Origin: an uncultured Holophagaceae bacterium | GTDB taxonomy: Bacteria > Acidobacteriota > Holophagae > Holophagales > Holophagaceae | DNA length: 64,000 bases | Reading direction: 5' to 3' | Assembly (NCBI GenBank): GCA_903857495.1 | Contig: CAIOFF010000023.1 | Coordinates: forward strand, 1-64,000 | Shown: in pieces, positions 23,765 to 39,220 of the stretch | Layout: every line of letters starts with the position of its first letter | How positions within the stretch are numbered: position 1 is the stretch's first letter | The notes under the pieces: generated by a model | Database searches by the model: none | What the model saw: only the letters and a program-made list of their open reading frames with translations | Told to the model about the DNA's origin: nothing | Made by a program: the position numbers and the translations under genes

Positions 23765-26101
23765 CTACTTGTGAAGGTAAACGTTGTCTACGTAGACCGT
23801 GCCGCTGCCGGTTCCTGAAACGAACAGGAGCTGAGCCAGGTGAGAGCGGTTCCAGGTGGCGCCGCTCTTAACAAAACTGGCGATGGGGATCTCCAGGGAG
23901 ACCCACCGGCCGGTGCCGGTGAGGGCGGGTGTAGACGTGGCGGTGGCAGTGAAGGTGGCGTCGGTGTCATCGCCGCCGCCGTAGGCCCCGTTGGCCCCGA
24001 AGTCCACCAGCTTGGCCTGGAAGTTGGTGACGTCAGGAGTCCAGACATCCACGTGGAAATACGTCATGGTCGAGCCGTCGATGACATGGGCAGTGAACTC
24101 GACTCCCACGTAGCTGAGGCCGGTGTACTTCTTGACCACCTTGGAGGTGCCCGCGATGGTGTAGTCACTGCCGACGCCCACGCCCCAGCTGGCGGCCCAG
24201 GTGTCCACCGTGGCATTGGTGTAGGTGCCGCTGCTGGTGTAGAGAGAGATCACATTCGCCGCGGCCACGGAGGGGGTGGCGGCAACGGTGGTGGGGGCGG
24301 TGGCCCCGGTGGGCGCACTGAGGGGAGGTGCGGAAGGCCCGGTGGCGCCGATGAAGGTGATGGGGCCGACGTAGTAGGTCTTGTCCGCCGCGGGGGTGGT
24401 GCCGAACTCGGGGAAGATCGAGATCTTGTTGAAGGTGAAGGTGAGATCGAGCGCGGCGGTTCCTGCGGCGGGGACGCCCATGTCAAAGGTCAGCGTCTGC
24501 CAGCCCGCCGCAGCCGTGACATCGGCCTCGACCGTGTGCGTGCTGTTGTTGGCATCCTCGAGCTTGAGCTTCATGACCACCCCTGCCGCGGGGCAGTAGA
24601 CCACCGCCTTCAGGGTCTTGTTGGAAGCCGAGAAAGGGACGGTCCCAACGGAATCCAGGTAACCCACGGACAGGGTGGTCCCGGCCCAGGACTGGGCGCC
24701 GGTCGTCTTGACGATCTTGACCACCGGGGTGGTGGGCCCCCCCGCGGGAGCGCCCGTGCCAGGGATCGTGGAGGCGGTTCCGCCAAAATCGGTGCCCTTG
24801 TAGGTGAGGCTGCTGGTGTTGAAGTCAAGGACGGGGTAGGAGGATACGGCGGCCACAGTGTTGTAGGTCTGAGTGGCCGAGGCAGCGGCCGTGTTCAGGT
24901 TGCCGGCCAGGTCACTGAAGGCCCCAACCGCGATACCGATGGTGATGGTCCCCGTGGCATTGGTGGGCGGGGTGACCAGCAGGGTGTAGTGGGCGGCGTC
25001 CACCTTGGTGACACTGGAAGCCGCCGTGGCCCCGGTGACCGTCACATCGCTGGCGGTGAAGCTGGTGCCCACATCCTCGCTGAAGGTGAAGGTCAGGGTC
25101 ACGGGTCCGGTGATGGCGGTGCCACTGGTGCCGCTGATGGCAACGGTGGGTGCCACAGTGTCCGTCAGGGCCGGACCCGCGGGGGCGGAGGCACCGACGA
25201 AGGTGAGAGGGCCGACGTAGTAGATCAAGCCTGTTCCAGCGGCTCCGAAGGCCGGGAAGAGCGACACTTTGTTGTAGGTGTAGGCAAGGTTGATAGCGGC
25301 CGTGCCGGAAGACTGGGTCGCGAAGTCGAAGGTGAGGGTCTGCCAGCCGGTCGCGGCGGTCACGGCGTCGGTCTCGACCGAGTGCGTGCCGTCATTGGCG
25401 TCTTCGACCTTTAGCTTGAAGGAGGTGCCCGCGGCGCTGTAGACCACTGCGGTCATCTTGTGCGCGGTGGCAGAGAAGGGCAGCTTCGGGATCGAGTCGA
25501 GGTAGCCGACGGACAGCGTGGTGCCAGCCCAGATCTCGGCGCCCGCGGTCTTCGTGACCTGGACGACCTTGTTGGCGGGTCCGCCGGTGGGTATACCGGT
25601 GCTGGTGACCGCCGAGACGGTGCCACCGAAGTCCGTGGCCTTGTAGGTCAGGCCAGCAGTATTGAAGTCCAGCACCGTGTAGCTGACCACTGTGTTGAAG
25701 GGCTGAGTGGCCGTGGCAGCAGTCGTGTTGGCATTCCCGGCCAGGTCACTGAAGGCGCCAACGGCCACGCTGATGGTCATGGTGCCGGAGGCATTCGCGG
25801 CCGGCGTGGCCACCAGGGTGTAGTGGGTGGTGTCAACCTTGGTCACCGCTGCCGCGGCTGTGCCGTTCGTGACAGTGACATCGCTGGCCGTGAAGCTCGT
25901 GCCGACATCCTCACTGAAGGTGAAGCTCAAGGTCACGGGAGCACTGGTCGGAGTGGCGGTGGTGCCGCTGATGGCCACGGTGGGAGCCGTGGTATCTGCC
26001 GGCGCGGCGGGCGGCGAAGAGGTGCCACCACAGCCCATCAGGAGGGAAAAAACCAGAAGGGCCAGCGTCAGGAACGTCCTTCGGAAACGATCAGTCAGCA
26101 T
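23765..26101 (-). CDS. Modular Ig-like/carbohydrate-binding-like lipoprotein
   Basis: A 778-residue lipoprotein (lipobox LLMGC, Cys24) without a catalytic motif I recognise. Modules in order: Ig-like 1 (APTVAISGT... FSEDVGTSFTASDVTVT, about 40-145), a beta-rich module starting VLDFNTAGLTYKATDFGG (about 145-300), Ig-like 2 (about 315-420), a second copy of the beta-rich module starting VLDFNTSSLTYKGTDFGG (about 425-585), then a third type of beta-sandwich ending GTVYVDNVYLHK (about 615-778). The same ending style (LQVDNIYWSK) closes the GH17 protein. ATG 26101 follows GGAG; ATG 26113 is the alternative. Likely a cell-surface glucan-binding protein of the locus. Confidence 0.75.
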   Translation of the reverse strand: MLTDRFRRTFLTLALLVFSLLMGCGGTSSPPAAPADTTAPTVAISGTTATPTSAPVTLSFTFSEDVGTSFTASDVTVTNGTAAAAVTKVDTTHYTLVATPAANASGTMTISVAVGAFSDLAGNANTTAATATQPFNTVVSYTVLDFNTAGLTYKATDFGGTVSAVTSTGIPTGGPANKVVQVTKTAGAEIWAGTTLSVGYLDSIPKLPFSATAHKMTAVVYSAAGTSFKLKVEDANDGTHSVETDAVTAATGWQTLTFDFATQSSGTAAINLAYTYNKVSLFPAFGAAGTGLIYYVGPLTFVGASAPAGPALTDTVAPTVAISGTSGTAITGPVTLTFTFSEDVGTSFTASDVTVTGATAASSVTKVDAAHYTLLVTPPTNATGTITIGIAVGAFSDLAGNLNTAAASATQTYNTVAAVSSYPVLDFNTSSLTYKGTDFGGTASTIPGTGAPAGGPTTPVVKIVKTTGAQSWAGTTLSVGYLDSVGTVPFSASNKTLKAVVYCPAAGVVMKLKLEDANNSTHTVEADVTAAAGWQTLTFDMGVPAAGTAALDLTFTFNKISIFPEFGTTPAADKTYYVGPITFIGATGPSAPPLSAPTGATAPTTVAATPSVAAANVISLYTSSGTYTNATVDTWAASWGVGVGSDYTIAGTSKVVKKYTGLSYVGVEFTAHVIDGSTMTYFHVDVWTPDVTNFQAKLVDFGANGAYGGGDDTDATFTATATSTPALTGTGRWVSLEIPIASFVKSGATWNRSHLAQLLFVSGTGSGTVYVDNVYLHK

Positions 26102-26355
26102 CGTGCTCTCCATGTGTGGCTGCGGCCGGGTCGCCGCAAGGAGTGGTAGGAGACGGGCCAGTGGGCTGCAAACCGGATGGACCGTTCAAAGGAAGGGAGG
26201 GCGATCGGAAATCGAATCAAGGATGCATTTTTAAAATGGATCAGTATATGGTCTTTTTTTGTTTTCCATTATGAATTTTCGCGAAGACACCTCACCGGGA
26301 GCTTGCCCGGAATACCTCCACGAAAGGCTGGGGTCCAGGCTTTCCCACCCGGGGC
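26102..26355 (-). promoter_or_regulatory. AT-rich upstream region of the Ig-like lipoprotein gene
   Basis: This gap is strikingly AT-rich at 26213-26285 compared with its neighbours. It carries the motif AAAAAAAGACCATATAC on the minus strand (26260-26244), shared with two other promoter regions of this locus. A clear -35/-10 pair cannot be fixed; the T/A tracts at 26231-26275 are the probable promoter zone. Confidence 0.5.
26244..26260 (-). promoter_or_regulatory. Candidate glucan-locus operator, site A
   Basis: AAAAAAAGACCATATAC read on the minus strand, about 143 bases upstream of the Ig-like lipoprotein start. It matches site C (30005-30020) over 15 of 16 positions and site B (27536-27550) more loosely. 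Binding by the adjacent XylR-type regulator is inferred. Confidence 0.55.
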
Positions 26356-27534
26356 TCAGCGCCGCAGGAGACCTGCCCGGTAAAGCGCCGGTGTGGTCCC
26401 GGCCTCACGCTTGAAGAACCGGCAGAAGTAGGTGGCCGACTGGAAGCCGCATTCCCGGGCAATCTCTTCGAGTCCCAGGTTGGAGTTCTCAAGCAGCCGC
26501 ATGCCCCGGTTGAGGCGGACCCGGGTCATCTCCCGGGCGACCGGGCGGCCCAGGTGCTTCTTGAACAGGTTGTCCAGGGTGGACCGGGAGCAGTTGGCGA
26601 GCTCACAGACCTGCTCCACGGAGATCCCCCGGCAGGCGCGGTCCCGGATGATGCGGGAGGCGGCCAGGACGATGGGGTTGTGGGCCGTGGTGATGTCCGT
26701 GGACTGGCGCTCCACGACCCGCAGGGGGGGGTGGTTGTAGAGCCCGGGTTCGAGGCGCTCGCCGTCCAGCATGCGGGTCAGCATCTCTGCAGCCATCTGG
26801 CCGATACCTTCCCCGTTGGGCGCGACGCTGGTCAGCGTGGGCCGGCAGAGGCGGCAGAGGATCTCGTCGTTGTCCACGCCGATCACCGAGACGTCCGAGG
26901 GCATGGAGATGCCCAGGTCCCGGCAGGCGTTGATGATCTGCTGCCCGCGGATGTCGTTGCAGGCAAGGATCGCGCTGGGCTTGGGCAGCTTCGTCAGCCA
27001 GGCGGCCAGGGCCGGCTCGTATTCGAGTCCCCGCATCTCGCGGAACTGGAGGCTGATGTTCGCAGAGACCCTCGGGGGTGGTGCGTAGACGTCGACAACC
27101 CTGCCCAGGGCCTGGAGGATACGACAGAAGGCCTCCGAGCGCCGGTCCGAGAAGAAGATGCCTGGGTAGCCCCCAAAGGCGAAATGGACGAAGCCGGCCT
27201 GAACGAAGAAGTCCGCAGCCAGCTGGGCCACGACGGCGGGGTCCGTGTCGATGCAGGGCGAATCCGGGCAGTTGCCCTCCCCCTGGCAGTCCACCACGGG
27301 CACCCCCAGGGACTTGATCTGCCGCCCCAAGTCCGGGGTGGAGATGAAGCCGATGATCCCGTCGATGTGCCCCTTCTTCAGCCAGCCCGGGAGCTTCATG
27401 AACTCGGCCCGCTCATAGGGGAAGATGAGCCACTCCTCGTGCTCCAGGGCGTAGGTGGCAACCCCGCGGCAGATCCCCCGGCTGTACCCACCGGAGGCCG
27501 GGACGAGCAGGGCGATGTGTCGGATACCTGGCAT
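26356..27534 (-). CDS. XylR-type transcriptional regulator (LacI-like sensor, AraC DNA-binding domain)
   Basis: A 392-residue regulator. Residues 1-270 form a periplasmic-binding-protein-like sensor (RHIALLVPASGGYSRGICRGVATYA; IDTDPAVVAQLAADFFVQAGF; ILACNDIRGQQII; DVSVIGVDNDEILCRL), closely parallel to E. coli XylR. Residues 285-392 hold two AraC-type helix-turn-helix units (SVEQVCELANCSRSTLDNLFKK; GLEEIARECGFQSATYFCRFFKREAG). It sits inside the beta-1,3-glucan locus between the lipoprotein and GH81 genes, so the ligand is probably a glucan-derived sugar. A motif copy directly abuts its start codon, suggesting autoregulation. Confidence 0.9.
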   Translation of the reverse strand: MPGIRHIALLVPASGGYSRGICRGVATYALEHEEWLIFPYERAEFMKLPGWLKKGHIDGIIGFISTPDLGRQIKSLGVPVVDCQGEGNCPDSPCIDTDPAVVAQLAADFFVQAGFVHFAFGGYPGIFFSDRRSEAFCRILQALGRVVDVYAPPPRVSANISLQFREMRGLEYEPALAAWLTKLPKPSAILACNDIRGQQIINACRDLGISMPSDVSVIGVDNDEILCRLCRPTLTSVAPNGEGIGQMAAEMLTRMLDGERLEPGLYNHPPLRVVERQSTDITTAHNPIVLAASRIIRDRACRGISVEQVCELANCSRSTLDNLFKKHLGRPVAREMTRVRLNRGMRLLENSNLGLEEIARECGFQSATYFCRFFKREAGTTPALYRAGLLRR

Positions 27535-27535
27535 G

Positions 27536-27550
27536 AAAAAAGATCATACC
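27536..27550. promoter_or_regulatory. Candidate glucan-locus operator, site B
   Basis: AAAAAAGATCATACC lies immediately upstream of the regulator's ATG (start at 27534, minus strand), where bound protein could block initiation. It is the weakest of the three motif copies (T for C in GACC/GATC, and CC instead of TAC at the end). Confidence 0.45.
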
Positions 27551-27655
27551 CTACTCAAAGCAGGTAAAGCTGCCTCTCCCCAGGATCACCTGGGTTTCCC
27601 TGCTCCTGACTCGCTTTGGGTTCTCCTCCAGGCGGCCTTCCAGGGGCAGCGGTCT

Positions 27656-29920
27656 CTACTTCTCGGCCAGCGAGCGCGGCGGAACCGTCAGCTGGACCCC
27701 GTCGCTGAAGCGGACGTTGAGCGGCGTGGAGCCGGCGTTGTAGGCCAGGTGGGTCCGCGTGCCGTCCGGCTTGCGGAACACTGAGAACAGGGCCGTGTCC
27801 GCGGTGATGGACAGGTCGGGCACGCCCATGCGCTGGAGGCTCAGCAGCCAGTGCAAGGTGTGAGAGCGGGTGTCGCCGAACTCCACCGCCCCCCAGCGGT
27901 TCCACTGGGCGAGGGCGGCGGCCGGGTCGGCCAGCGCCAGGTACTTGGCGAAGACGTCCTGCCAGATGTCCGGCGGATCGGGACGCCGACCGGTCTTGGC
28001 GAAGACCGCGCTCTGGGCGGGCAGCTCGGCGAGGCTCTGCCGCACGAACTTCGGGTCCCGGCCCAGGTAGAGAGAGGCACTGGTAATGGGCAGCAGGTTG
28101 ATGCCCTTGATCTGGCGGGGTTCGTCGATCCACCACGTGTTGTGTGCGTATTTTCCCCCGAACAGCATGCTGACTTCGGTGTTGAGGTAGTCCGGCGGCA
28201 GGACCAAGTGGTCCAGATCGAACCAGTAGTGCTGAATGCTCGAGATCTCGGTGGTGTAGAGCCAGATGCCCAGGTCCCGCAGGGCCCGGTCGCCGGTGAC
28301 CTCGCCCCAGAGCACCAGCCCCGCCCAGGCGTTCACGGCCTCGGAGGAGGACTCCTGGTTGTTCCCGAAGGGTCCAAGGCCGATGCCGGAAGCCCAGGAG
28401 TGGCCCTCGTAGGCGTCGAAGTTGCGGAGGAACGGGAAGTCGCTCCCGCCGCGCCGGGTCGTGGCGATGTCGGCCACCAGCAGATCGACCATGGCCCCCC
28501 ACTGGTCCTTCCCGGCCCAGGCGGGATCCCGCAGCGCGATCTCGGCCATGGCGCGGATCCAGTAGCCGTAGTGGAAATGGTGGTCGTTCACCTGCTCGAC
28601 CCCGAAGTATTCCTCGGGGTAGGCGACCACGGTCCCCAGGGTCTTGGTGTAGCGGAAGTAGGTCTTGCGGCTCTCGCCGTTGAACCACATCTCGACGCGG
28701 CCCTTCAGCAGCTTCAGCAGCTGATCGCGCATCTCGAGATCACCCTGTTGCTCCGCCACGTTCATCAGGCTGGTGATGCGCTGCAGGCCCTTGCCCTGCC
28801 AGTAGGCTCCGTTCCCGATCTCCAGCAGCATGCGGCGGGCGTTGCGGAGGTCGGTCTTGAGCAGGTCCCGCAGCTCAGGCAGGCGGTCCCCAGCCTTGAT
28901 GCCCGGCCACCACGGCACGAAGCCTGTGTAGGTGGACGTGGTCTTGAAGCCGGGGGCCGCGAGCAGGTGGATGCGGCCCCGGAGCGTCTCATAGGCCGGG
29001 CCCAGGCGGCCCTTGACAGAAGCGTTGCCAAACCACTGGTGGGGATAAAGCCCCAGCAGGGGCGCGGCCTCAGGGCCTTCTAGGGTGCGGGTGTCCGCGT
29101 CGAAGCGGGTCTCCACCTGACCGCTGGCCCGGTTGACGTCCCAGGAGACGCGGGTCTCCTGCAGGAAGCTGTAGGCGTGCTTCATGAAGAGCTGCAGGGT
29201 GGCCGGCTGGTCATCCGGCAGCGCCGCGGCGGAGAGGTAGTCTCGGCCGGCCGGCATCCGGGCCAGCCACTGCTTCTCGCCGACCTTCTCCCAGCGGACC
29301 CCCGCAGGTCCGAAGAGGGCATAGGTGCGGGCCTTCACCTTCAGGGCGAGGACCCTCGGGTCCGCGCCATCGTCGATCCGGTTGCCCGCTTCCGGCAGGG
29401 TCAGCCGGACATCGCCCCGGGAGATCCGCAGGTAGGAGAAGGGCGAGCCGTGGGCGATGGTCGCCCGGAAGGTGTCCGGCCCCCGGGACATGTCGACTTC
29501 GATGGACCAGTCCCCGGCCTTGGCCAGCCGGGCCGGGCCGGGCTCGAAGGCTACGGGCGCAAGCAGGATCGGATCCTTGTGGGGGAAGTGGATCTCAGTG
29601 TCCCGGCGCTTGGTGGGAACGACCTCCCTGCCCGGCAGCGCCAGCTCCAGCCCGGCGGGGCTGAACCGGAAGGTCAGCGGCTGGGCGTAGATCACCTCGG
29701 GCTGGGGGCTGAACAGCAGCGCCGAATACCACTGGTTGGTCTGGGCGGCAGTCTTCAGCAGGGCCTCGGTGCGCATCGGCGCCGACGGCACGTCGCGGTC
29801 GCCGCCCTGGCCGCTGAGCCAGTAGGCGCCAGCGCCAGCCTTGACGGTCTGCGCGGGCACGGGAACCGACTGGAGCACACCCACCAGGGTCGCCAGCAGC
29901 AGGCATGGGATGGATTTCAT
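27656..29920 (-). CDS. GH81 endo-beta-1,3-glucanase (laminarinase)
   Basis: A 754-residue secreted enzyme with signal peptide (PCLLLATLVGVLQSVPVPAQ). It hydrolyses internal beta-1,3-glucosidic bonds with inversion. GH81 landmarks: NQWYSALLF, DHHFHYGYWI with Asp446, FPFLRNFDAYEGHSWASG, NNQESSSEAVNAW with Glu523 and Glu527 (the acidic pair of the active site) and EVSMLFGGKYAHNTWW. N-terminal beta-sandwich and C-terminal (alpha/alpha)6 domains fill the length with no extra binding module. Divergent from the porin; their shared gap carries site C. Probably periplasmic or extracellular. Confidence 0.93.
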   Translation of the reverse strand: MKSIPCLLLATLVGVLQSVPVPAQTVKAGAGAYWLSGQGGDRDVPSAPMRTEALLKTAAQTNQWYSALLFSPQPEVIYAQPLTFRFSPAGLELALPGREVVPTKRRDTEIHFPHKDPILLAPVAFEPGPARLAKAGDWSIEVDMSRGPDTFRATIAHGSPFSYLRISRGDVRLTLPEAGNRIDDGADPRVLALKVKARTYALFGPAGVRWEKVGEKQWLARMPAGRDYLSAAALPDDQPATLQLFMKHAYSFLQETRVSWDVNRASGQVETRFDADTRTLEGPEAAPLLGLYPHQWFGNASVKGRLGPAYETLRGRIHLLAAPGFKTTSTYTGFVPWWPGIKAGDRLPELRDLLKTDLRNARRMLLEIGNGAYWQGKGLQRITSLMNVAEQQGDLEMRDQLLKLLKGRVEMWFNGESRKTYFRYTKTLGTVVAYPEEYFGVEQVNDHHFHYGYWIRAMAEIALRDPAWAGKDQWGAMVDLLVADIATTRRGGSDFPFLRNFDAYEGHSWASGIGLGPFGNNQESSSEAVNAWAGLVLWGEVTGDRALRDLGIWLYTTEISSIQHYWFDLDHLVLPPDYLNTEVSMLFGGKYAHNTWWIDEPRQIKGINLLPITSASLYLGRDPKFVRQSLAELPAQSAVFAKTGRRPDPPDIWQDVFAKYLALADPAAALAQWNRWGAVEFGDTRSHTLHWLLSLQRMGVPDLSITADTALFSVFRKPDGTRTHLAYNAGSTPLNVRFSDGVQLTVPPRSLAEK

Positions 29921-30192
29921 GGTGGCCCTCCGGAACGGTCACCCGGAATGTAGACGATCGGCGCACCGGAAATGGGCCCCTCGGAAACTTTTTCAAGAAT
30001 TACGAAAAAGGACCATATACAACCTGTATTTTTGGTTTCACCTTGAATCAGCCTTCTCTCGGCCCAGTTATTAACCTGAAGACCTGCCAAGGAAAAGGGA
30101 CTGGAACCTGCAGATTCCCAAAGAATAAGAACAAGAAATCGTAGGTTTCGACGTTCATCCTCGCGATTCGACCTCCAGCCAAAAGGTGCACC
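29921..30192. promoter_or_regulatory. Divergent promoter region, GH81 and porin
   Basis: A 272-base gap serving two outward genes, AT-rich between 29985 and 30150. It contains site C and, just to its right, GTATTTTTGGTTTCACC (30026-30042), which could be an imperfect inverted partner of ACCATATAC. TTGAAT (30043-30048) is a possible -35 for the porin without a clear -10 at the right distance. Confidence 0.5.
30005..30020. promoter_or_regulatory. Candidate glucan-locus operator, site C
   Basis: AAAAAGGACCATATAC in the GH81/porin gap, about 85 bases upstream of GH81 and 173 upstream of the porin. It shares GACCATATAC exactly with site A. An imperfect inverted element GTATTTTTGGT starts 5 bases to its right. 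Confidence 0.55.
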
Positions 30193-31554
30193 ATGCACAT
30201 CGATATCCAGGGCTCAGCCACCGACCAACGACCTGCACAGCCGATCCTTGGCCGCATCCTCCAGAGGGGGCTGCCGTTCCTCGCGGGCCTGGCCTGCTGC
30301 ACCACCGCGGCGGCCCAGGGCCTCAGCTACGGGCCCTTCACCCTAAACGCCTTCGCCAAGTACGAGGGGGGGCGATCAAACAACCAGGCCAAGGACGCCC
30401 AGCTCTACCCCGGTGAGGACAAGCAGCGTGTGTGGGCGGACCAGCTCGTCATCGGCCGCGGCTACGGGACCGAGAGCACGGGTACCCTGCTGGTGCAGCC
30501 CTGGCTCGGCGTCAAGTTCGATATCGGTGGCGGCTTCAAGCTGAGCGCCCTGGTGAGCCAGCGATGGCGCGGCGGCCGGGGCCTGCCGACCACGGCCGAC
30601 GTGCCCGGTTACGTCTACGAGGAGAACGTGGCCATCAGCCACGAGGAGTATGGCAGCCTGCGGGTGGGCAAGATGACCGCGCGCGCCTGGGCCGTCGCCG
30701 ACTACCCCTACGGCACGAACGTGGGCCTGGCGGACGAGTGGGGCGCCAGTGGCGCCGGCTACGGCATGAACACCTCTGCCATCCGGTACACCTCCCGTGT
30801 CTTCGATGTGTTCCAGGGCGACCTGGTCCTCGAGGGCACCTACGACCGCGGCAACATGGCCTTCAAGACCCACAAGCCCAGGTTCTACGAGCTCTACGCC
30901 CAATACCACAGCGGCGATCTGGTGGTGGACGCGATCTTCCAGGACACCCGCAACGGCAACCCCATGGCCTGGGGCCATGGGCCCTTCACGGGCCTGACAC
31001 CCTTCCCCCAGGACGACAGCAAGCTCGGCGGCTCCGGCCAGGGCATCGCAATGGTGATGGCCCGCTACGAGCTGAACACCCACTGGCAGGTGTCCGGCGG
31101 TCTCCGCCGCAACCGCTGGAGTGGCGCCTACGCGGTGCTCACCAAGGTCGGCCCCCCGGATCTCTGGAACAACATGTTCAATGTCGACTGGGCCAGCACT
31201 GCCAACCCCCTGTGGAAACCGGGCTACGCCGCGACTTCCAACGACGGCTTCGCGGGCCTGCGCTACCGCTGGAACAAGTGGTCCACCTGGGCGGCCATGG
31301 AATACCTGGGCAGGGCCGCCACGGACAACCCTGCCGAGCGGGGCCAGAGCAACTGGGCCACCTACAACACAGCTGGCCTGCAATACGACTTCGGGCACGG
31401 GCTCGCCCTCTACGGCTCCGTGGGCATGGTCCACTACGGCCGGCTCGGGCTGTCTCCGATGTCCATGCCCACCAACTCCGCCTTCACCGGTGTCGACTCG
31501 CGCGTCACGCGCAACGGCAACTGGTTCATCCTGGGTGCCGTCTACGTCCTCTGA
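30193..31554 (+). CDS. Outer-membrane porin-like beta-barrel
   Basis: A 453-residue protein with a long-n-region signal (residues 1-42, ending TAAAQG) and a barrel-like pattern of alternating aromatic/hydrophobic strands: FTLNAFAKYEGG, LLVQPWLGVKFDI, SLRVGKMTARAW, AIRYTSRVFDVFQGDLVLEGTYD, FYELYAQYHSGDLVVDAIFQD, WFILGAVYVL at the C-terminus. It resembles porins of the Gram-negative porin superfamily, but the end is Leu rather than the usual Phe. Placed between GH81 and GH17, it probably admits glucan oligosaccharides. It starts with a short 5' overlap-free gap before GH17. Confidence 0.75.
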   Translation: MHIDIQGSATDQRPAQPILGRILQRGLPFLAGLACCTTAAAQGLSYGPFTLNAFAKYEGGRSNNQAKDAQLYPGEDKQRVWADQLVIGRGYGTESTGTLLVQPWLGVKFDIGGGFKLSALVSQRWRGGRGLPTTADVPGYVYEENVAISHEEYGSLRVGKMTARAWAVADYPYGTNVGLADEWGASGAGYGMNTSAIRYTSRVFDVFQGDLVLEGTYDRGNMAFKTHKPRFYELYAQYHSGDLVVDAIFQDTRNGNPMAWGHGPFTGLTPFPQDDSKLGGSGQGIAMVMARYELNTHWQVSGGLRRNRWSGAYAVLTKVGPPDLWNNMFNVDWASTANPLWKPGYAATSNDGFAGLRYRWNKWSTWAAMEYLGRAATDNPAERGQSNWATYNTAGLQYDFGHGLALYGSVGMVHYGRLGLSPMSMPTNSAFTGVDSRVTRNGNWFILGAVYVL

Positions 31555-31573: not shown

Positions 31574-33289
31574 ATGTCGATTCAGCTGCCCGCCTTGATC
31601 CAACGCGCTTCTGCCTTCCTGCTCCTCGCCCTGCTGGCCGCCTGCGGCGGAGGGGGTGTCATCACTTCGGATGGCGTCGCCGTCCGCACGCTTCCGGCGG
31701 AATTCAGCTCCCGCCAGGGGGTGGCCTACTCGCCCTTCCGGACCGGGAATCGCGACACGGAGACCGTCACCACCGCGCACATCAAGCAGGATCTCGACCT
31801 GCTCGTGGCCGGCAACCTCAAGCTCATCCGCCTGTTCGACAGCTCCGACAGCGTCGCCAGACAGACCCTGCAGGTCATCAAGGACAACGCCCTGGACATC
31901 AAGGTCCAGCTCGGGGTCTACATCGTGAGCGGCAACGAGACCTTCAACCAGGCGGAGATTGCCCGCGGCATCGCCCTGGCCAACGCCTATCGCGACACGG
32001 TGCTGGCGGTCAGCGTGGGCAATGAGACCATGGTCAGCTGGTCCTTCAACCCCGTGTCCACCACCAAGATGGCCGCCTACATCACCCAGGTGCGCAACAA
32101 CATCTCCCAGCCCGTGACGACCGACGACAACTTCGCCTTCTTCGCCGGGGCCACTTCCGAGGTGCTCCGCACCATCGACTTCGTCGCCCTGCATACCTAC
32201 GCGCTGATCGACACGGTTTCAGATGCCGGTTCCTGGGACTGGAAGCAGGAGACCGTGGCCCCCAACCTCCGCGCCGCGGCGATGATGGACGCCGCCATTG
32301 CCAAGGCCAAGAAGGACTACAGCGCAGCCCGTACGAACCTCGACAAACTCGGCTACACCTTCCTGCCCATCATCATCGGCGAGACCGGCTGGAAGTCCGT
32401 GGCCACCGGCGGCGAGGTCTACCGCGCCCACCCGGTGAACCAGAAGATGTACGTGGACCGCCTCAAGGCCTGGCAGGCGGCAGCGGTGGCTGGCGGCGGC
32501 GGCCCCAGGACCATCGTCTACTTCGAGGCCTTCGACGAGCCCTGGAAGGGTGGCGATGACGGGTGGGGGCTCTTCAACGTGTCCCGCCAGGCCCGATATG
32601 TGATCCAGAGCCTCTATCCCTCTTCCCAGTGGGAGGCCGGGAGCTACACCGCGGCCGATGCCCTCTACTACGTCCCTCCCATCAACCACGGCCCCGTCAC
32701 CGCCAACCGCTACACCCTCTACGCCGAGACCTTGACTACAGGCGAGGTCCGCCCCGTGGAGACACCCATCTGGAACGCCTGGCAGAACGGCACCACCTCG
32801 GTCGCGTCCGAGACCTCATCCAGCTCGGTCGAAGGCACCAAGAGCATGGTGATCACGCCCACTCCCCTCGACTGGGGCTGGGGCATGACCATGGCCTTCA
32901 CCTACAGCTCGGACGACCTCACGGCCTTCGCCACGACCGGCTACCTGAACTTCAGCATCAAGACCACCTACCCCGGCAAGCTCGAGGTGGGCTTCCTGAC
33001 GGGCACCGCCGCGAATACCAGCCTCTATGACGTCTATCTCCCCATCCAGTCCGGCGACTACGGCTACGTGAACGACGGGGCCTGGCACAACGTCAAGATC
33101 CCCATCAGCGCCATCACGCCCCACGGCGCCATGGCCTACGGCATGACGGATCCCACCAAGGCCAAGCTGGACCTGGCCACTCTCACCAACCCCTTCGTGA
33201 TCGCCGACCGCTACGCTGTCACCGGCAAGGCGACCAACAGCAACATCACGACCGCCCTCCAGGTGGACAACATCTACTGGTCGAAGTGA
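31574..33289 (+). CDS. GH17-like beta-1,3-glucanase lipoprotein
   Basis: A 571-residue lipoprotein (lipobox LLAAC, Cys24). The catalytic barrel matches GH17: GVAYSPFRTG, IRLFDSSDS, VSVGNETMVSW with acid/base Glu151, VDFVALHTYAL-like IDFVALHTY, IIGETGWKS with nucleophile Glu270, and YFEAFDEPWKGGDDGWGLF. Residues about 370-571 form a beta-sandwich that may bind glucan (ends LQVDNIYWSK). GH17 enzymes cleave or transglycosylate beta-1,3-glucans with retention. It follows the porin after 19 bases. Confidence 0.9.
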   Translation: MSIQLPALIQRASAFLLLALLAACGGGGVITSDGVAVRTLPAEFSSRQGVAYSPFRTGNRDTETVTTAHIKQDLDLLVAGNLKLIRLFDSSDSVARQTLQVIKDNALDIKVQLGVYIVSGNETFNQAEIARGIALANAYRDTVLAVSVGNETMVSWSFNPVSTTKMAAYITQVRNNISQPVTTDDNFAFFAGATSEVLRTIDFVALHTYALIDTVSDAGSWDWKQETVAPNLRAAAMMDAAIAKAKKDYSAARTNLDKLGYTFLPIIIGETGWKSVATGGEVYRAHPVNQKMYVDRLKAWQAAAVAGGGGPRTIVYFEAFDEPWKGGDDGWGLFNVSRQARYVIQSLYPSSQWEAGSYTAADALYYVPPINHGPVTANRYTLYAETLTTGEVRPVETPIWNAWQNGTTSVASETSSSSVEGTKSMVITPTPLDWGWGMTMAFTYSSDDLTAFATTGYLNFSIKTTYPGKLEVGFLTGTAANTSLYDVYLPIQSGDYGYVNDGAWHNVKIPISAITPHGAMAYGMTDPTKAKLDLATLTNPFVIADRYAVTGKATNSNITTALQVDNIYWSK

Positions 33290-34253: not shown

Positions 34254-35744
34254 GTGGGTGAATCAGTGGAACGGGTCCAGGCGGGAGAATCGGCAGCCCT
34301 CGAGGGCAGGCTCTCCTTCGTGGAAAAGGCCGGCTACTCGCTGGGCGATGCGGCCTCGAACTTCTACTGGAAGACCTTCGAGTTCTTCATCATCTTCTTC
34401 TACACGGATGTGTTCGGCATCTCCGCGGCGGCCGTTGGCACCATGATGCTGGTCACCCGGGTGCTCGATGCCGTGGCCGACCCGGTCATGGGCACCATTG
34501 CCGACCGCACTCAGACCCGCTGGGGCCACTTCCGGCCCTACCTGCTGTGGTTCGCCCTCCCCCTGGCCGCCGCCGGCGTCATCACCTTCACCACGCCCAA
34601 CTTCGGCCCCTCCGGCAAGCTGGTCTACGCCTACGTGACCTACTGCCTCCTGATGCTGCTCTACACGGCCGTGAACATTCCCTACAGCGCCCTGCTGGGG
34701 GTCATGACACCCAGCTCCATCGAGCGCACGTCCCTGGCCTCCTTCCGGTTCGTCGGCGCCTTCTCCATCGCTGTGCTGGTGCAGTACTGCACGCCCAGCC
34801 TGGCCCAGTGGTTCGGCATGAGCTCCGCCCTGCGCGCCCAGCACAGCTTCCTGGCCCATCCCGTCGAGTGGGTGCGGTGGTTCCTCTCCCGGGACTTCCT
34901 CCTGCTGCCCTCGGACCCCATCCAGGGCTGGCAGCTGACCATGGCCCTCTACGGCGTGTGCGCCGTGGTCCTGCTATTCCTCTGCTTCTTCCTGACCCGG
35001 GAGCGGGTCACGCCTCCCGAGGACCAGAGCCCCGACTTCAAGGAGGACCTGAAGAGCATGGCCACCAGCCGCTCCTTCGTGGTGATGCTGGGAGTGCTGA
35101 TCATCATGATCATGTCCTTCGTGCTCCGGGGCTCGGTCTCGGCCTACTACTTCAAGTACTACGTGCACCGCAATGACCTGCTGGGCCCCTTCCTGGTGGC
35201 CAACGCCCTGGCCTTCCTGGCTGCCGTGGTCATCACCCCCACCATCGCCAAACACTTCGACAAGAAGAACCTGTTCATCGCGGCCATCGGCATCGGCGGC
35301 CTTATCATTGGCAGCTTCTGGCTCGCCAAGCCCTCAGACATCAGCCTCATGTTCGGCCTCCAGGTCCTCGCCAGCTTCGTCATCGGCTTCAACTCGCCCC
35401 TGGTCTGGGCCATGTTCGCCGACACCGCCGATGACGCGGAGTGGCGTCTGGGGCGCCGCAACACCGGCCTGGTCTTCGCCTCGGCGGTCTTCGGCATGAA
35501 GATCGGCCTGGCCATCGGCGCCTGGGTGACGGGCCTGGTCCTGACACTGTTCGGCTACGTCCCGAACCTTGACCAGTCCGCCAGCTCCCTCCTGGGCATC
35601 CGCCTCTCCATGAGCCTCTTCCCCGGCGTGCTGCTGGTGATCGCGGCGGTCCTGATGAAGGCCTATCCCCTCGATGACAAGAAGATGATCCAGATCGAGA
35701 AGGATCTGGCGGCCCGCAAGAAGATCGCGGCGGGTGAAGCCTGA
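34254..35744 (+). CDS. GPH-family sugar:cation symporter (MelB-like MFS)
   Basis: A 496-residue inner-membrane transporter of 12 helices starting at GTG 34254. The first helix is preceded by FVEKAGYSLGDAASNFYWKTFEFFIIFFYTDV, the GPH hallmark with its Asp; DAVADPVMGTIADRTQTRWGHFRPY matches the family signature loop. GPH carriers move glycosides with Na+ or H+. Position in the locus suggests laminaribiose or longer beta-1,3-gluco-oligosaccharides. Its TGA overlaps the phosphorylase ATG (TGATG). Confidence 0.9.
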   Translation: MGESVERVQAGESAALEGRLSFVEKAGYSLGDAASNFYWKTFEFFIIFFYTDVFGISAAAVGTMMLVTRVLDAVADPVMGTIADRTQTRWGHFRPYLLWFALPLAAAGVITFTTPNFGPSGKLVYAYVTYCLLMLLYTAVNIPYSALLGVMTPSSIERTSLASFRFVGAFSIAVLVQYCTPSLAQWFGMSSALRAQHSFLAHPVEWVRWFLSRDFLLLPSDPIQGWQLTMALYGVCAVVLLFLCFFLTRERVTPPEDQSPDFKEDLKSMATSRSFVVMLGVLIIMIMSFVLRGSVSAYYFKYYVHRNDLLGPFLVANALAFLAAVVITPTIAKHFDKKNLFIAAIGIGGLIIGSFWLAKPSDISLMFGLQVLASFVIGFNSPLVWAMFADTADDAEWRLGRRNTGLVFASAVFGMKIGLAIGAWVTGLVLTLFGYVPNLDQSASSLLGIRLSMSLFPGVLLVIAAVLMKAYPLDDKKMIQIEKDLAARKKIAAGEA

Positions 35745-38700
35745 TGGATGATCGGAGAACCTCAAGGATGCGCACCACCTACATCTCTGATGCCGAGCTC
35801 AAGGGGCAGGACGCAGCCGTCTCAGGCTTCCTGGCGGAGATCGACGGCGAGCCCTGCTACTGCGTCGCCAACCACGACGCCATGGCCCCCTTCTTCATGA
35901 GCCTGGTGAGCGATTCAGACCACTGGCTGTTCATCTCCAGCAATGGCGCCCTCACCGCCGGACGCCGGGACCCGGACAACGCCCTCTTTCCCTACTACAC
36001 CGATGACCGGATCCACGACAGCCAGGATCAGACGGGCAGCAAGACCCTCCTGCGCATCACCCGTGGTGGCCAGACCTGGCTCTGGGAGCCCTTCTCCCAG
36101 CGGATGGAAGGGTTGTACCGCGTCACGCGGAACCTCTGCAAGAGCGTCTATGGCAACAAAATCCTCTTCGAAGAGATCAACCACGACCTCGGCCTGACCT
36201 TCCGCTACGAGTGGATGAACAGCGAGCGTTTCGGCTTCGTGCGCCGGGCAGCCCTCTCCAACCAGGGCACCGAGGCCATCTCCGCCGAGGTGGTCGACGG
36301 CATCGAGAACGTGCTGCCCTGGGGGGTGGAGCGTCGCTTCCAGGTGGAATACAGCACCCTGGTCGATGGCTACAAGCGCACCGAGTTGCTGGCAGGCACG
36401 GGCCTGGCCCTCTTCCGCCTCAGTTCCGTCCCCGTGGACAAGCCCGAGCCCAGCGAGGCGCTGCGGGTGAACTTGGCCTGGTCCACGGGCCTGGAACCGG
36501 CCAGGCGCCTCCTCTCCACCGCCCAGCTCCGAGCCTTCCGGCACGGCGAGACAGTGCAGGAGGAGACGGATATCCGTGGCCGGCGTGGCGCCTACCTGCT
36601 GAACGCGACCTTCCCCTTGGAACCAGGTGCCCGCAAAGACTGGCTGGTGGTCGCCGAGCTCGACCAAGATGCCACCCGCGTCGTGGCCCTCAACCAGCGG
36701 CTGGCCTCCGGCGCCGACCTCATGCCGGAAGTCCTGGAGGACGTGGCCCGGGGCACCCGGAACCTGATGCGACTCGTGGCCAGCGCCGATGGCCTGCAGA
36801 CCACGGGCGACCACCTGAACACCTGGCGGCACTTCTCGAACACCCTGTTCAACCTTCTGCGCGGTGGCGTGCCCGAGGATGGCTACGGGATCACCCGCGC
36901 GGACCTCAGGCTGTTCCTGGAAGAGTCCAACAAGGGCGTTGCGCAGCGCCACGGAGCCTTCCTGGACGCCCTGCCCGAACGCCTGGCCCATGGCGACCTC
37001 ATGGCCCGGGTGGCGGCCCTGGGCGACCCGGACCTGGAGCGCCTGACCCGGGAATACCTACCCCTCACCTTCAGCCGGCGCCATGGCGATCCCAGCCGCC
37101 CGTGGAACGCCTTTTCCATCAAGGTGAAGGACGAGCAGGGCAGGAAGCTTCTCACCTACGAGGGCAACTGGCGGGACATCTTCCAGAACTGGGAGGCCCT
37201 TGGCTACTCCTACCCCGACTACCTGGAGAGCATGGTCTTCAAGTTCCTGGACTGCTCCACGGTGGAGGGCTACAACCCCTACCGGCTGCTGCGGGCGGGC
37301 TTCGACTGGGAGGTGAGCGATCCCCACGATCCCTGGTCCTTCATCGGCTACTGGGGGGACCACCAGGTCATCTACCTCCTGAAGCTGCTGGAGGCCTCCC
37401 GCCGCTTCCACCCGGGCCGGCTGGCAGAGCTGCTGGGCCGGCGCGTCTTCACCTACGCAAACGTCCCCTACCGCCTCAAGACCTACGAGGCCATGCTGGC
37501 GGATCCCCACAGCACCATCGACTTCGACGCGGACCTGCACCAGCAGACCCTGGACCGGGCGGCGACCCTGGGCGCTGATGGCCTGGCAGTGTGGGACGCC
37601 CAGGGTCCAGTCCGGGCCAACCTCACAGAGAAGCTCCTGGTGGTGGCCCTCTCCAAGCTCACCAGCTACATCCCCGGGGCCGGCATCTGGATGAACACCC
37701 AGCGCCCCGAGTGGAATGACGCCAACAATGCCCTGGTGGGCTACGGCGTCTCCATGGTCACCCTCTGCTACCTGCGTCGCTACCTGGCCTTCTGCGAGGA
37801 GCTTTTCGGGGAGGCTCCGGCGCCCAGCCAGGAAGTGGCCGGTGAGCTGGCGGAGCTCCTGGAGGTCGTGGCCCGGGTCCTGGAACAGCACGCCCCACCC
37901 ACAGACCGCGCCTTCACGGACGCAGAACGTCGGCTCATCCTGGATCCGCTTGGCCAGGCGGGCTCCAGCTACCGCACCAAGGTCTATGCCAGCGGCTTCA
38001 CCGCGCCGAGGACCCTTGTTTCCCGGGAGCGCCTGGAGGCCTTCTGTGCCGTCGCCCTGGCCCACATCGACCATGCCATCCGGGCCAACCGCCGCAGCGA
38101 CGGCCTCTACCACGCCTACAACGTCATGAAGCTCACCGGCGACGGCATCGAGGTGCGCGGGCTGCACGAGATGCTTGAGGGCCAGGTGGCGGTGCTCAGC
38201 TCCGGCGCCCTCTCCGCCGAAGAGTCCGTCGCGGTGCTCGACGCACTGCGGGCCAGCGCCCTCTACCGACCTGACCAGGCCAGCTACCTCCTCTATCCCG
38301 ACCACCCGCTGCCGCACTTCCTGGAGAAGAACACGCTGCCCGCGGCCGCCCTCGCGGACTCCGCCTTGCTGCGTGCCCTTCTGGCCGCCGGTGACGAGCG
38401 CCTCGCGAGCCGCGACGTGGCAGGCCACGTCCACTTCAACCCGGCCTTCCGGAACGCCGAGGGTCTGAGACTCGCCCTGGAGGACCTGAAGGCCGGCCCC
38501 CACCGGTCCCTGGTCGTGGCCGACGAAACCAGGCTCCTGGAGCTCTACGAGGAGGTCTTCGACCACCGCTCCTTCACCGGCCGCTCCGGGACCTTCTACA
38601 AATACGAAGGCCTCGGCTGCGTCTACTGGCACATGGTCTCAAAGCTGCTCCTGGCCGTGGATGAGGTGATGCGCCAGGCCGCCCGCCACGACGCGGGGGC

Positions 38701-39220
38701 CCTGCCCCGCCTCCAGCGGCACTACCAGGCCATCCGCGAGGGCCTCGGCGTCCACAAGTCCCCGGCCCTGCACGGCGCCATTCCCACGGATCCCTACTCC
38801 CACACCACGGGCTTCGCCGGCGCCCAGCAGCCGGGCATGACCGGGCAAGTGAAGGAGGACCTCCTCTCCCGCATGAGCGAGGTGGGGGTGCGCGTGGCGC
38901 AGGGCCGCATCATCTTCCAGCCCTGGGCCGTCTCGACGGCGGAGTTCCTGCAAGAGCCCGCCACCTTCCGCCATGTGGACCTGGCCGGTCAGCCTCGCAT
39001 GCTGGCCCTGGAGGCCGGTACTTTCGCCTTCACTTTCTGCCAGGTCCCGGTGGTGGTCCACCGGGCGGGCCCGGCAGGCCTCCGAATCACCCGCCAGGAC
39101 AGTGCCAGCTCTGCCCGCCCGGAGCTTGCCCTGGACGCATCCACCAGCCGCCTCATCTTCAGCCGCTCAGGTGAAATCCATCGCCTCGACGTGTTCCTCG
39201 GTCTCCCGGGGCAGGCCTGA
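35744..39220 (+). CDS. GH94-like beta-1,3-glucan phosphorylase candidate (GH149/GH161 type)
   Basis: A 1158-residue cytoplasmic protein without signal. It has an N-terminal beta-sandwich (about residues 1-300: HDAMAPFFMSLVSDSDHWLF; TWLWEPFSQRMEGL), a helical linker and an (alpha/alpha)6 region (about 400-1000) with RPEWNDANNALVGYG near residue 655; Asp659 would be the general acid by analogy with the WND element of GH94 phosphorylases. YYTDDRIHDSQDQTG, FEEINHDLGLTFRYEW and KYEGLGCVYWHMVSKL are other fixed-looking blocks. Size and context fit the GH149 or GH161 beta-1,3-glucan phosphorylases, which release glucose 1-phosphate. The ATG at 35768 has GGAGA nine bases upstream and may be the true start. 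Confidence 0.75.
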   Translation: MDDRRTSRMRTTYISDAELKGQDAAVSGFLAEIDGEPCYCVANHDAMAPFFMSLVSDSDHWLFISSNGALTAGRRDPDNALFPYYTDDRIHDSQDQTGSKTLLRITRGGQTWLWEPFSQRMEGLYRVTRNLCKSVYGNKILFEEINHDLGLTFRYEWMNSERFGFVRRAALSNQGTEAISAEVVDGIENVLPWGVERRFQVEYSTLVDGYKRTELLAGTGLALFRLSSVPVDKPEPSEALRVNLAWSTGLEPARRLLSTAQLRAFRHGETVQEETDIRGRRGAYLLNATFPLEPGARKDWLVVAELDQDATRVVALNQRLASGADLMPEVLEDVARGTRNLMRLVASADGLQTTGDHLNTWRHFSNTLFNLLRGGVPEDGYGITRADLRLFLEESNKGVAQRHGAFLDALPERLAHGDLMARVAALGDPDLERLTREYLPLTFSRRHGDPSRPWNAFSIKVKDEQGRKLLTYEGNWRDIFQNWEALGYSYPDYLESMVFKFLDCSTVEGYNPYRLLRAGFDWEVSDPHDPWSFIGYWGDHQVIYLLKLLEASRRFHPGRLAELLGRRVFTYANVPYRLKTYEAMLADPHSTIDFDADLHQQTLDRAATLGADGLAVWDAQGPVRANLTEKLLVVALSKLTSYIPGAGIWMNTQRPEWNDANNALVGYGVSMVTLCYLRRYLAFCEELFGEAPAPSQEVAGELAELLEVVARVLEQHAPPTDRAFTDAERRLILDPLGQAGSSYRTKVYASGFTAPRTLVSRERLEAFCAVALAHIDHAIRANRRSDGLYHAYNVMKLTGDGIEVRGLHEMLEGQVAVLSSGALSAEESVAVLDALRASALYRPDQASYLLYPDHPLPHFLEKNTLPAAALADSALLRALLAAGDERLASRDVAGHVHFNPAFRNAEGLRLALEDLKAGPHRSLVVADETRLLELYEEVFDHRSFTGRSGTFYKYEGLGCVYWHMVSKLLLAVDEVMRQAARHDAGALPRLQRHYQAIREGLGVHKSPALHGAIPTDPYSHTTGFAGAQQPGMTGQVKEDLLSRMSEVGVRVAQGRIIFQPWAVSTAEFLQEPATFRHVDLAGQPRMLALEAGTFAFTFCQVPVVVHRAGPAGLRITRQDSASSARPELALDASTSRLIFSRSGEIHRLDVFLGLPGQA

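Follow-up and report, generated by a model that had tools for sequence, protein, structure and literature searches.

The window analysed here, a stretch of 64,000 nucleotides (positions 1 to 64,000 of contig CAIOFF010000023.1, assembly GCA_903857495.1), comes from an uncultured Holophagaceae bacterium of the phylum Acidobacteriota, whose genome amounts to 3.70 Mb in 70 contigs and is 98.5% complete. On its minus strand, an open reading frame at 23765-26101 encodes a protein of 778 aa, counted from the ATG at 26101; if started from an alternative in-frame ATG, at 26113, it would have 782 aa. In the translation, the hydrophobic leader of this protein ends in SLLMG/C24, which we take to be a plausible lipobox, and is followed by the modules Ig (Big_12), A1, Ig, A2, and B in this order, with a short Pro/Ala/Thr linker between A2 and B. 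The features of the lipoprotein gene and of the genes beside it are as follows.

23771..24277, minus strand: module B, CBM-like beta-sandwich at the C-terminus, residues 609-777 (alignments and predicted model)
24350..24838, minus strand: module A2, laminarin-binding-CBM-like, residues 422-584 (module HMM)
24857..25162, minus strand: Ig-like domain 2 (Big_12), residues about 314-415 (second Big_12 stretch)
25196..25681, minus strand: module A1, laminarin-binding-CBM-like, residues 141-302 (module HMM)
25712..25996, minus strand: Ig-like domain 1 (Big_12), residues 36-130 (Pfam PF19078)
26030..26101, minus strand: signal peptide with lipobox, residues 1-24; cleavage site in front of Cys24 (read from the translation)
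26244..26259, plus strand: first copy of operator-like site A, exact GTATATGGTCTTTTTT, 143 bp before the lipoprotein start
26356..27534, minus strand: XylR-like regulator, periplasmic-binding-protein sensor and AraC-type HTH (Pfam PF13377, PF12833)
27536..27551, minus strand: weak match to the operator-like site, 3 mismatches to GTATATGGTCNTTTTT, immediately before the start of the regulator
27656..29920, minus strand: GH81 endo-β-1,3-glucanase (PF17652, E 1.5e-57)
30005..30020, minus strand: second copy of operator-like site A, exact GTATATGGTCCTTTTT, in the promoter region between the divergent GH81 and porin genes
30193..31554, plus strand: outer-membrane porin-like protein, 61% identical to a Limnohabitans homologue
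31574..33289, plus strand: GH17 lipoprotein with a C-terminal CBM30-like module (PF00332, E 8.8e-8)
34254..35744, plus strand: GPH-type sugar:cation symporter (PF13347, E 7.2e-93; TIGR00792 over cut-off)
35744..39220, plus strand: β-1,3-oligosaccharide phosphorylase, presumably of the GH149 type (1198-bit match to PDB 6hq6)

Big_12 is found in two stretches of the lipoprotein (whole-protein E 5.8e-24, 84.7 bits against a curated cut-off of 27). Apart from Big_12, only one sub-threshold match was returned by Pfam, and no catalytic family was found in Pfam or NCBIfam, which bears out the view of the first-pass annotation that the protein has no catalytic site. The Pfam families SusE and SusF are likewise absent among its matches up to E 1. 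NCBIfam also suggested CopC, with 29.8 bits where the cut-off is 95; this was rejected as a likeness that the Ig domain shows by chance.

The two Ig and A units are the product of a tandem duplication. The openings VLDFNTAGLTY and VLDFNTSSLTY, by which a repeat of Ig/beta-module pairs had been recognized at first reading, were found at residues 143-153 and 424-434, respectively, and the protein identity is 73.5% between the Ig domains, 60.9% between A1 and A2, and 66.0% over the whole unit (71.8% at the DNA level). The pairwise score of A1 and A2, 509, lies 54 SD above that of shuffled sequences, the best of 300 shuffles reaching 72.

Sequence profile and predicted fold both make module A a homologue of the laminarin-binding CBM of PDB 8QX6, an entry with the title 'Novel laminarin-binding CBM X584' and the molecule name 'PKD domain-containing protein'. 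Eleven proteins provided 25 A modules for a first profile (alignment A1), which had 8qx6 as its sole PDB match up to E 1 (E 1.6e-11), and a profile of 53 diverse A modules (alignment A3) matched it at E 7.9e-17, with positions 23-158 of 159 covered. The latter profile also matched designed dTor proteins in the PDB, which were set aside as repeat artefacts. In alignment A5, one row (L053) is aligned wrongly. Single sequences match 8qx6 weakly (whole protein, E 0.055; A2, E 0.0029). A2 was predicted by AlphaFold2 as a beta-strand domain with a pLDDT of 96.1, and Trp116 of the A2 construct is the only residue invariant across the 53 modules. In the VIA alignment of this model, 8qx6_B comes first (Z 16.5, rmsd 2.7, 150 residues, 23% identity) and CBM11 next (Z 13.5), whereas Foldseek places CBM11 first (E 7.2e-6) and 8qx6_A fifth (E 1.1e-5) with similar E-values. 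Of the checks that had been proposed, the structure prediction of the repeated modules, made for A2 and aligned with VIA, and the profile search for carbohydrate-binding-module homologues both have 8QX6 as the best match. The module type was reportedly named CBM102 by Zuehlke et al. in 2024, from a four-module surface glycan-binding protein (SGBP) of Christiangramia forsetii; we take 8QX6 to be of this CBM102 type, that of the laminarin SGBP of that organism.

Module B is predicted to be a generic beta-sandwich CBM of the CBM11/CBM30 kind. Its model (pLDDT 85.8) shows a CBM-type beta-sandwich, for which Foldseek gave CBM30 as the best match and then CBM11; VIA put a complex I assembly-factor domain (7zkq, Z 13.2) level with CBM11 (13.0), followed by CBM30 at 12.0. 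Alignments were made from 24 Holophagaceae copies (alignment A2) and then from 18 that include Burkholderiales (alignment A4). Against the PDB, the profile reached CBM11 chains marginally (E 0.029), and Pfam CBM30 was touched by one of the 24 B modules (0.18), the B of the window being without a Pfam match. No convincing sequence relative with an established ligand was found for module B in these Pfam and PDB profile searches. The statement in the first-pass annotation that the final module ends like that of the GH17 protein holds weakly: the last strands are alike (VYVDNVYLHK in module B and LQVDNIYWSK in the GH17 protein), and hhalign finds a partial profile similarity (probability 84%, E 7.6e-6, 45 columns), but the pairwise comparison is no better than shuffles (z 0.5). 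Such last strands are a common ending of sandwiches of this kind. The homology between module B and the GH17 C-terminus was dropped as first claimed, and the likeness, being weak, is not used as an argument. Homology between A and B was also rejected (pairwise z -0.1 and -0.4); their profile similarity is weak (probability 92%, E 7e-7), and the two are regarded as sharing no more than a fold superfamily. Between module A and the GH17 C-terminus, no homology was seen.

The surrounding genes plausibly form a complete set for the use of β-1,3-glucan, a sugar that algae store and that fungi have in their walls. The porin and GH17 genes are divergent from the GH81 gene, and an epimerase-like protein is encoded between GH17 and the GPH symporter. 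The CBM30 match in the GH17 lipoprotein (E 4.8e-4) lies under the Pfam cut-off. PDB 6hq6, the match of the phosphorylase, bears the name 'Bacterial beta-1,3-oligosaccharide phosphorylase'; in view of this match and of the absence of any Pfam family, an assignment of 35744-39220 to GH94 was rejected. The product of 30193..31554, for which neither a Pfam nor a PDB match was found, is a putative porin judged by the character of its sequence. SusD (PF07980) has no match in the genome, the Bacteroides control being positive, and the TonB plug domain occurs eight times in the genome and nowhere on the contig of the window. Hence the locus lacks the SusC/SusD pair by which a polysaccharide utilization locus (PUL) of the Bacteroidota type is recognized.

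Operator-like site A links the lipoprotein gene with this set, as had been noticed at first reading: exact copies lie before the lipoprotein gene and at the GH81/porin promoter region. The window contains two exact copies and one 3-mismatch copy of GTATATGGTCNTTTTT against 0.09 expected, and the only two exact copies of GTATATGGTC in the 3.7-Mb genome are both at this locus. In the window and in two relatives (L037 and L044), site A or its one-mismatch form stands 139-143 bp ahead of the lipoprotein start, and L032-L035 have such a site, identical or with one mismatch, before the gene for a B-module protein. Altogether, the site was found in 6 of 15 Holophagaceae stretches, the patterns used being absent from the other nine, and a regulator homologue with 67-81% identity is present in 13 of 15 stretches of relatives. 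The XylR-like regulator probably controls the lipoprotein gene through site A by a presumed contact with it.

Among 77 Holophagaceae genomes, 14 have a match to the lipoprotein, 11 to module A, and 13 to module B; GH81 is found in 6, GH16 in 14, and a match to the GH17 query in 16. All 14 lipoprotein genomes carry GH81 or GH16, compared with 4 of the 63 others (Fisher 3.6e-12, kinship ignored), and all 14 have a GH17-query match, compared with 2 of 63 (p 1.4e-13, kinship ignored), the Fisher value overstating independence because these genomes are related. Synteny of the whole locus with regulator, GH81, porin, and GH17 is retained in L036, L037, and L045, and in the genome of L042 and L043 the set is spread across two contigs. 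One relative (L037) has five A modules in its protein. Geothrix sp. SG200 is among the close relatives found with module A.

Module A was also scanned in one genome per species from 84,980 species, with at least 595 pattern matches, at least 491 of them confirmed, and at least 79 distinct loci kept, all found by module A alone. Among the matches listed, a homologue of GH16, GH17, or GH81 lies in the flanks of 68 of the 79 loci (67 without L110, whose GH17 match is weak at 4.4e-8), and 11 have none of these in the fetched flanks. The flank models are our own: Holophagaceae proteins served to build them, and these very loci were used in their iteration; the genes of relatives are longest-ORF calls, shadow ORFs included; and five of the 79 loci (L047-L050 and L052) belong to Holophagaceae genomes already examined. 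Pfam confirms the sampled flank enzymes except the GH17 of L051, a fusion that remains below the cut-off, and L056, a fusion without Pfam confirmation. Fusion of A to GH16 is confirmed by Pfam in L065 and L076.

Two uptake designs can be told apart among these loci. SusD is present in 33 of the 79 among the matches listed, and in all 33 the A protein is encoded by the next gene after SusD, at a gap of -10 to +44 bp. A homologue of the porin of the window (26-69% identity) occurs in 18 of the 79 among the matches listed, L052 included and none of them with SusD, and GH81 accompanies it in 17 of the 18. Neither SusD nor a porin homologue is found in 28 of the 79, again among the matches listed. 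The locus of the window, with GH81, GH17, β-1,3-oligosaccharide phosphorylase, and porin, belongs to the porin type. The same binding module thus serves two uptake designs, one SusD-adjacent and the other porin-associated.

Most work on surface glycan-binding lipoproteins has dealt with them as SusC/SusD partners in Bacteroidota, and four systems invite comparison with the window protein. The A modules resemble the 8QX6 CBM in fold and by profile, and relatives likewise have the module in several copies on Ig/PKD spacers of non-enzymatic lipoproteins. The window protein differs in sequence, with 23% identity, and in having two copies plus module B, Big_12 instead of PKD spacers, and an acidobacterial host with a locus without SusC/SusD. 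The SGBPs at the SusE/SusF position of Bacteroidota laminarin loci are similarly non-enzymatic A-module lipoproteins encoded in a β-1,3-glucan locus; in Mucilaginibacter pineti (L061), for example, the order is SusC, SusD, a PKD+AAA lipoprotein, a PKD protein, GH16, and GH16, whereas the window genome has no SusD and the porin stands in its place. The homologues hold the position of SusE/F, which is not membership of the SusE/SusF families. A further parallel is found in the porin-GH17 / GH81-lipoprotein loci of Burkholderiales, for example in Limnohabitans sp. Rim11 (L097), whose porin and GH81 are 61% and 57% identical to those of the window; GH17 adjoins the porin, GH81 is divergent, and the lipoprotein has A and B. 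It differs in an additional GH16 between GH81 and the lipoprotein, and a regulator of the Geothrix type was not found in the Limnohabitans locus. By role, the window protein, for which non-enzymatic β-1,3-glucan binding is predicted, can also be compared with BuSGBP-B of Bacteroides uniformis, which is described as a non-enzymatic β-1,3-glucan-binding surface protein with GH16 and other enzymes as partners, together with SusC/SusD (mBio 2020, PMC7157763).

Taken together, the gene very probably encodes a non-enzymatic lipoprotein of the SGBP type, presumably exposed on the surface, that would hold β-1,3-glucan for the enzymes of the adjoining genes. This role is proposed because of the homology of module A, the post-SusD position of the homologues, and the neighbouring β-1,3-glucan enzymes, and the protein has the makeup of an SGBP: a lipoprotein without a catalytic domain, carrying modules on spacers and encoded beside β-1,3-glucan enzymes. 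The non-enzymatic, SusE/SusF-like glucan-binding role suggested in the first-pass annotation thus gains support from the profile and predicted-fold homology to a laminarin-binding CBM, from the place of the A-module protein directly after SusD in 33/33 SusD loci, and from the GH81, GH17, and phosphorylase neighbours together with the confinement of the lipoprotein, within Holophagaceae, to GH81- or GH16-bearing genomes. In the proposed mechanism, the exported lipoprotein would be anchored by a lipid at Cys24, with two Ig spacers carrying the laminarin-binding-type CBMs A1 and A2 and the different CBM, B, capping the C-terminus. It would keep β-1,3-glucan chains close to two enzymes, GH17 with its lipid anchor and the exported GH81; the oligosaccharides that arise might cross the dedicated porin, be imported by the GPH symporter, and be split by the phosphorylase, in this putative order, while the adjacent XylR-like regulator would act on the lipoprotein gene via site A. 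The relative of module A in its family is described as laminarin-binding. Laminarin is largely soluble, and the specificity of CBMs may change inside one family.

Other roles are conceivable for such a protein. Lipid-anchored beads of Ig domains and CBMs also suit adhesion, and the five A modules of the L037 relative would provide reach and avidity, so that the protein might grip the β-1,3-glucan of fungal or algal walls and hold the cell on its food or on a surface instead of delivering glucan to the uptake machinery. This is quite improbable, given that the lipoprotein gene has site A in common with the enzyme genes, that the homologue directly follows SusD in every SusD locus, and that A modules are fused to GH16 enzymes. 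It is also decidedly unlikely that the ligand is another β-glucan, namely mixed-linkage β-1,3-1,4-glucan or cellulose, as for CBM11 and CBM30: although CBM11 ranks second among the structural matches of A, and first by Foldseek, and although CBM11 and CBM30 are among the best structural matches of B, whose profile also touches CBM11, module A is nearest to a laminarin-binding CBM both in sequence and in the VIA alignment, and GH81 and the β-1,3-oligosaccharide phosphorylase are β-1,3-type enzymes.

The orientation of the lipoprotein bears on a further alternative, in which it would be anchored in the outer membrane and face the periplasm, concentrating oligosaccharides to be transported or phosphorolysed. 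Outside Bacteroidota, lipoproteins cannot be assumed to reach the cell surface, and the protein showed no identifiable export signal. Three CBMs on Ig spacers, together with endo-glucanases that cleave polymers, nevertheless suit the capture of polymer outside the cell, and homologues are found in SusC/SusD loci, where the proteins at the SusE/F position lie on the cell surface; a periplasmic role is therefore unlikely.

In the most far-reaching reading, the locus would represent a glycan capture system independent of SusC/SusD outside Bacteroidota, in which a dedicated porin is combined with a CBM-bead surface lipoprotein of the module family known from Bacteroidota SGBPs, and the set of porin, GH81, GH17, and lipoprotein would have moved between Burkholderiales and Geothrix-like Acidobacteriota; the chances for and against this wider proposal appear evenly balanced. 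A porin-based locus without SusC/D is common to Geothrix relatives and Burkholderiales. In trees of porin and GH81, the five rows of the genus Geothrix form one clade (100/100 and 100/99), with mainly Burkholderiales rows beside it, and transfer of porin and GH81 between the phyla is likely from these sequences. The branching around the Geothrix clade is poorly settled in both trees, which favour no particular direction or number of inter-phylum transfers. The parts of the locus are of known kinds, and their combination with a porin and without SusC/SusD seems new; no report of a porin-based laminarin locus or of Geothrix with laminarin was found in the titles and abstract starts of an open-access subset of the literature. 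By the gene set named above, Acidobacteriota and freshwater Burkholderiales join the candidate users of β-1,3-glucan. In the porin type there is no SusC/SusD lid to be fed, which makes testable whether binding proteins feed a transporter or simply hold the polymer near the enzymes. Among public plasmids, one record was matched, from Emticicia oligotrophica, with a B-like part in a gene annotated as family 16 glycosylhydrolase.

The porin-like protein of the window, recognized by its sequence character, had no match in Pfam, NCBIfam or the PDB. Homologues occur, among the matches listed, in 18 of the 79 loci with module A (a domain resembling laminarin-binding modules), for the most part in Burkholderiales, and 17 of these 18 also carry GH81. 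Judged from sequence, the protein and its homologues are a candidate family of beta-1,3-oligoglucan porins. Features of the window and of related Holophagaceae loci (L-numbers) are as follows:

Window 30193-31554, porin-like protein
Window 35744-39220, beta-1,3-oligosaccharide phosphorylase, 1158 aa
L032 13778-15391, L034 13642-15252 and L035 12824-14467, ~540-aa protein with the beta-sandwich module B at its C-terminus
L034 9278-10930 (equivalents in L032 and L035), ~550-aa protein
L035 15461-18886, TonB-plug receptor, 1141 aa, also carrying a carboxypeptidase-regulatory domain (both domains from Pfam)
L037 8018-11074, minus strand, lipoprotein of a relative

In the GH16-type Holophagaceae loci, the TonB-plug receptor of L035, with 1141-aa ORFs also in L032 and L038, seems to stand in for the porin, so that both uptake designs would occur within one genus, where the fetched flanks contain no SusD. 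The genes for the ~540-aa proteins are preceded by the operator-like site A, and the L034 copy contains an Ig domain of the Big_2 family; no catalytic family was found in it. The ~550-aa protein, whose gene adjoins those for GH16 and the lipoprotein, found no Pfam match (L034 copy) and, in loci from these same genomes, shows a remote likeness to the GH17 model built here, with E-values of 3e-8 to 9e-12; it is possibly a new glucan-active family.

The phosphorylase, which we take to be of the GH149 type, matched no Pfam family at all. The L037 lipoprotein has five A modules and lacks module B, and its gene adjoins counterparts of the window's genes for the regulator, GH81, the porin and GH17.
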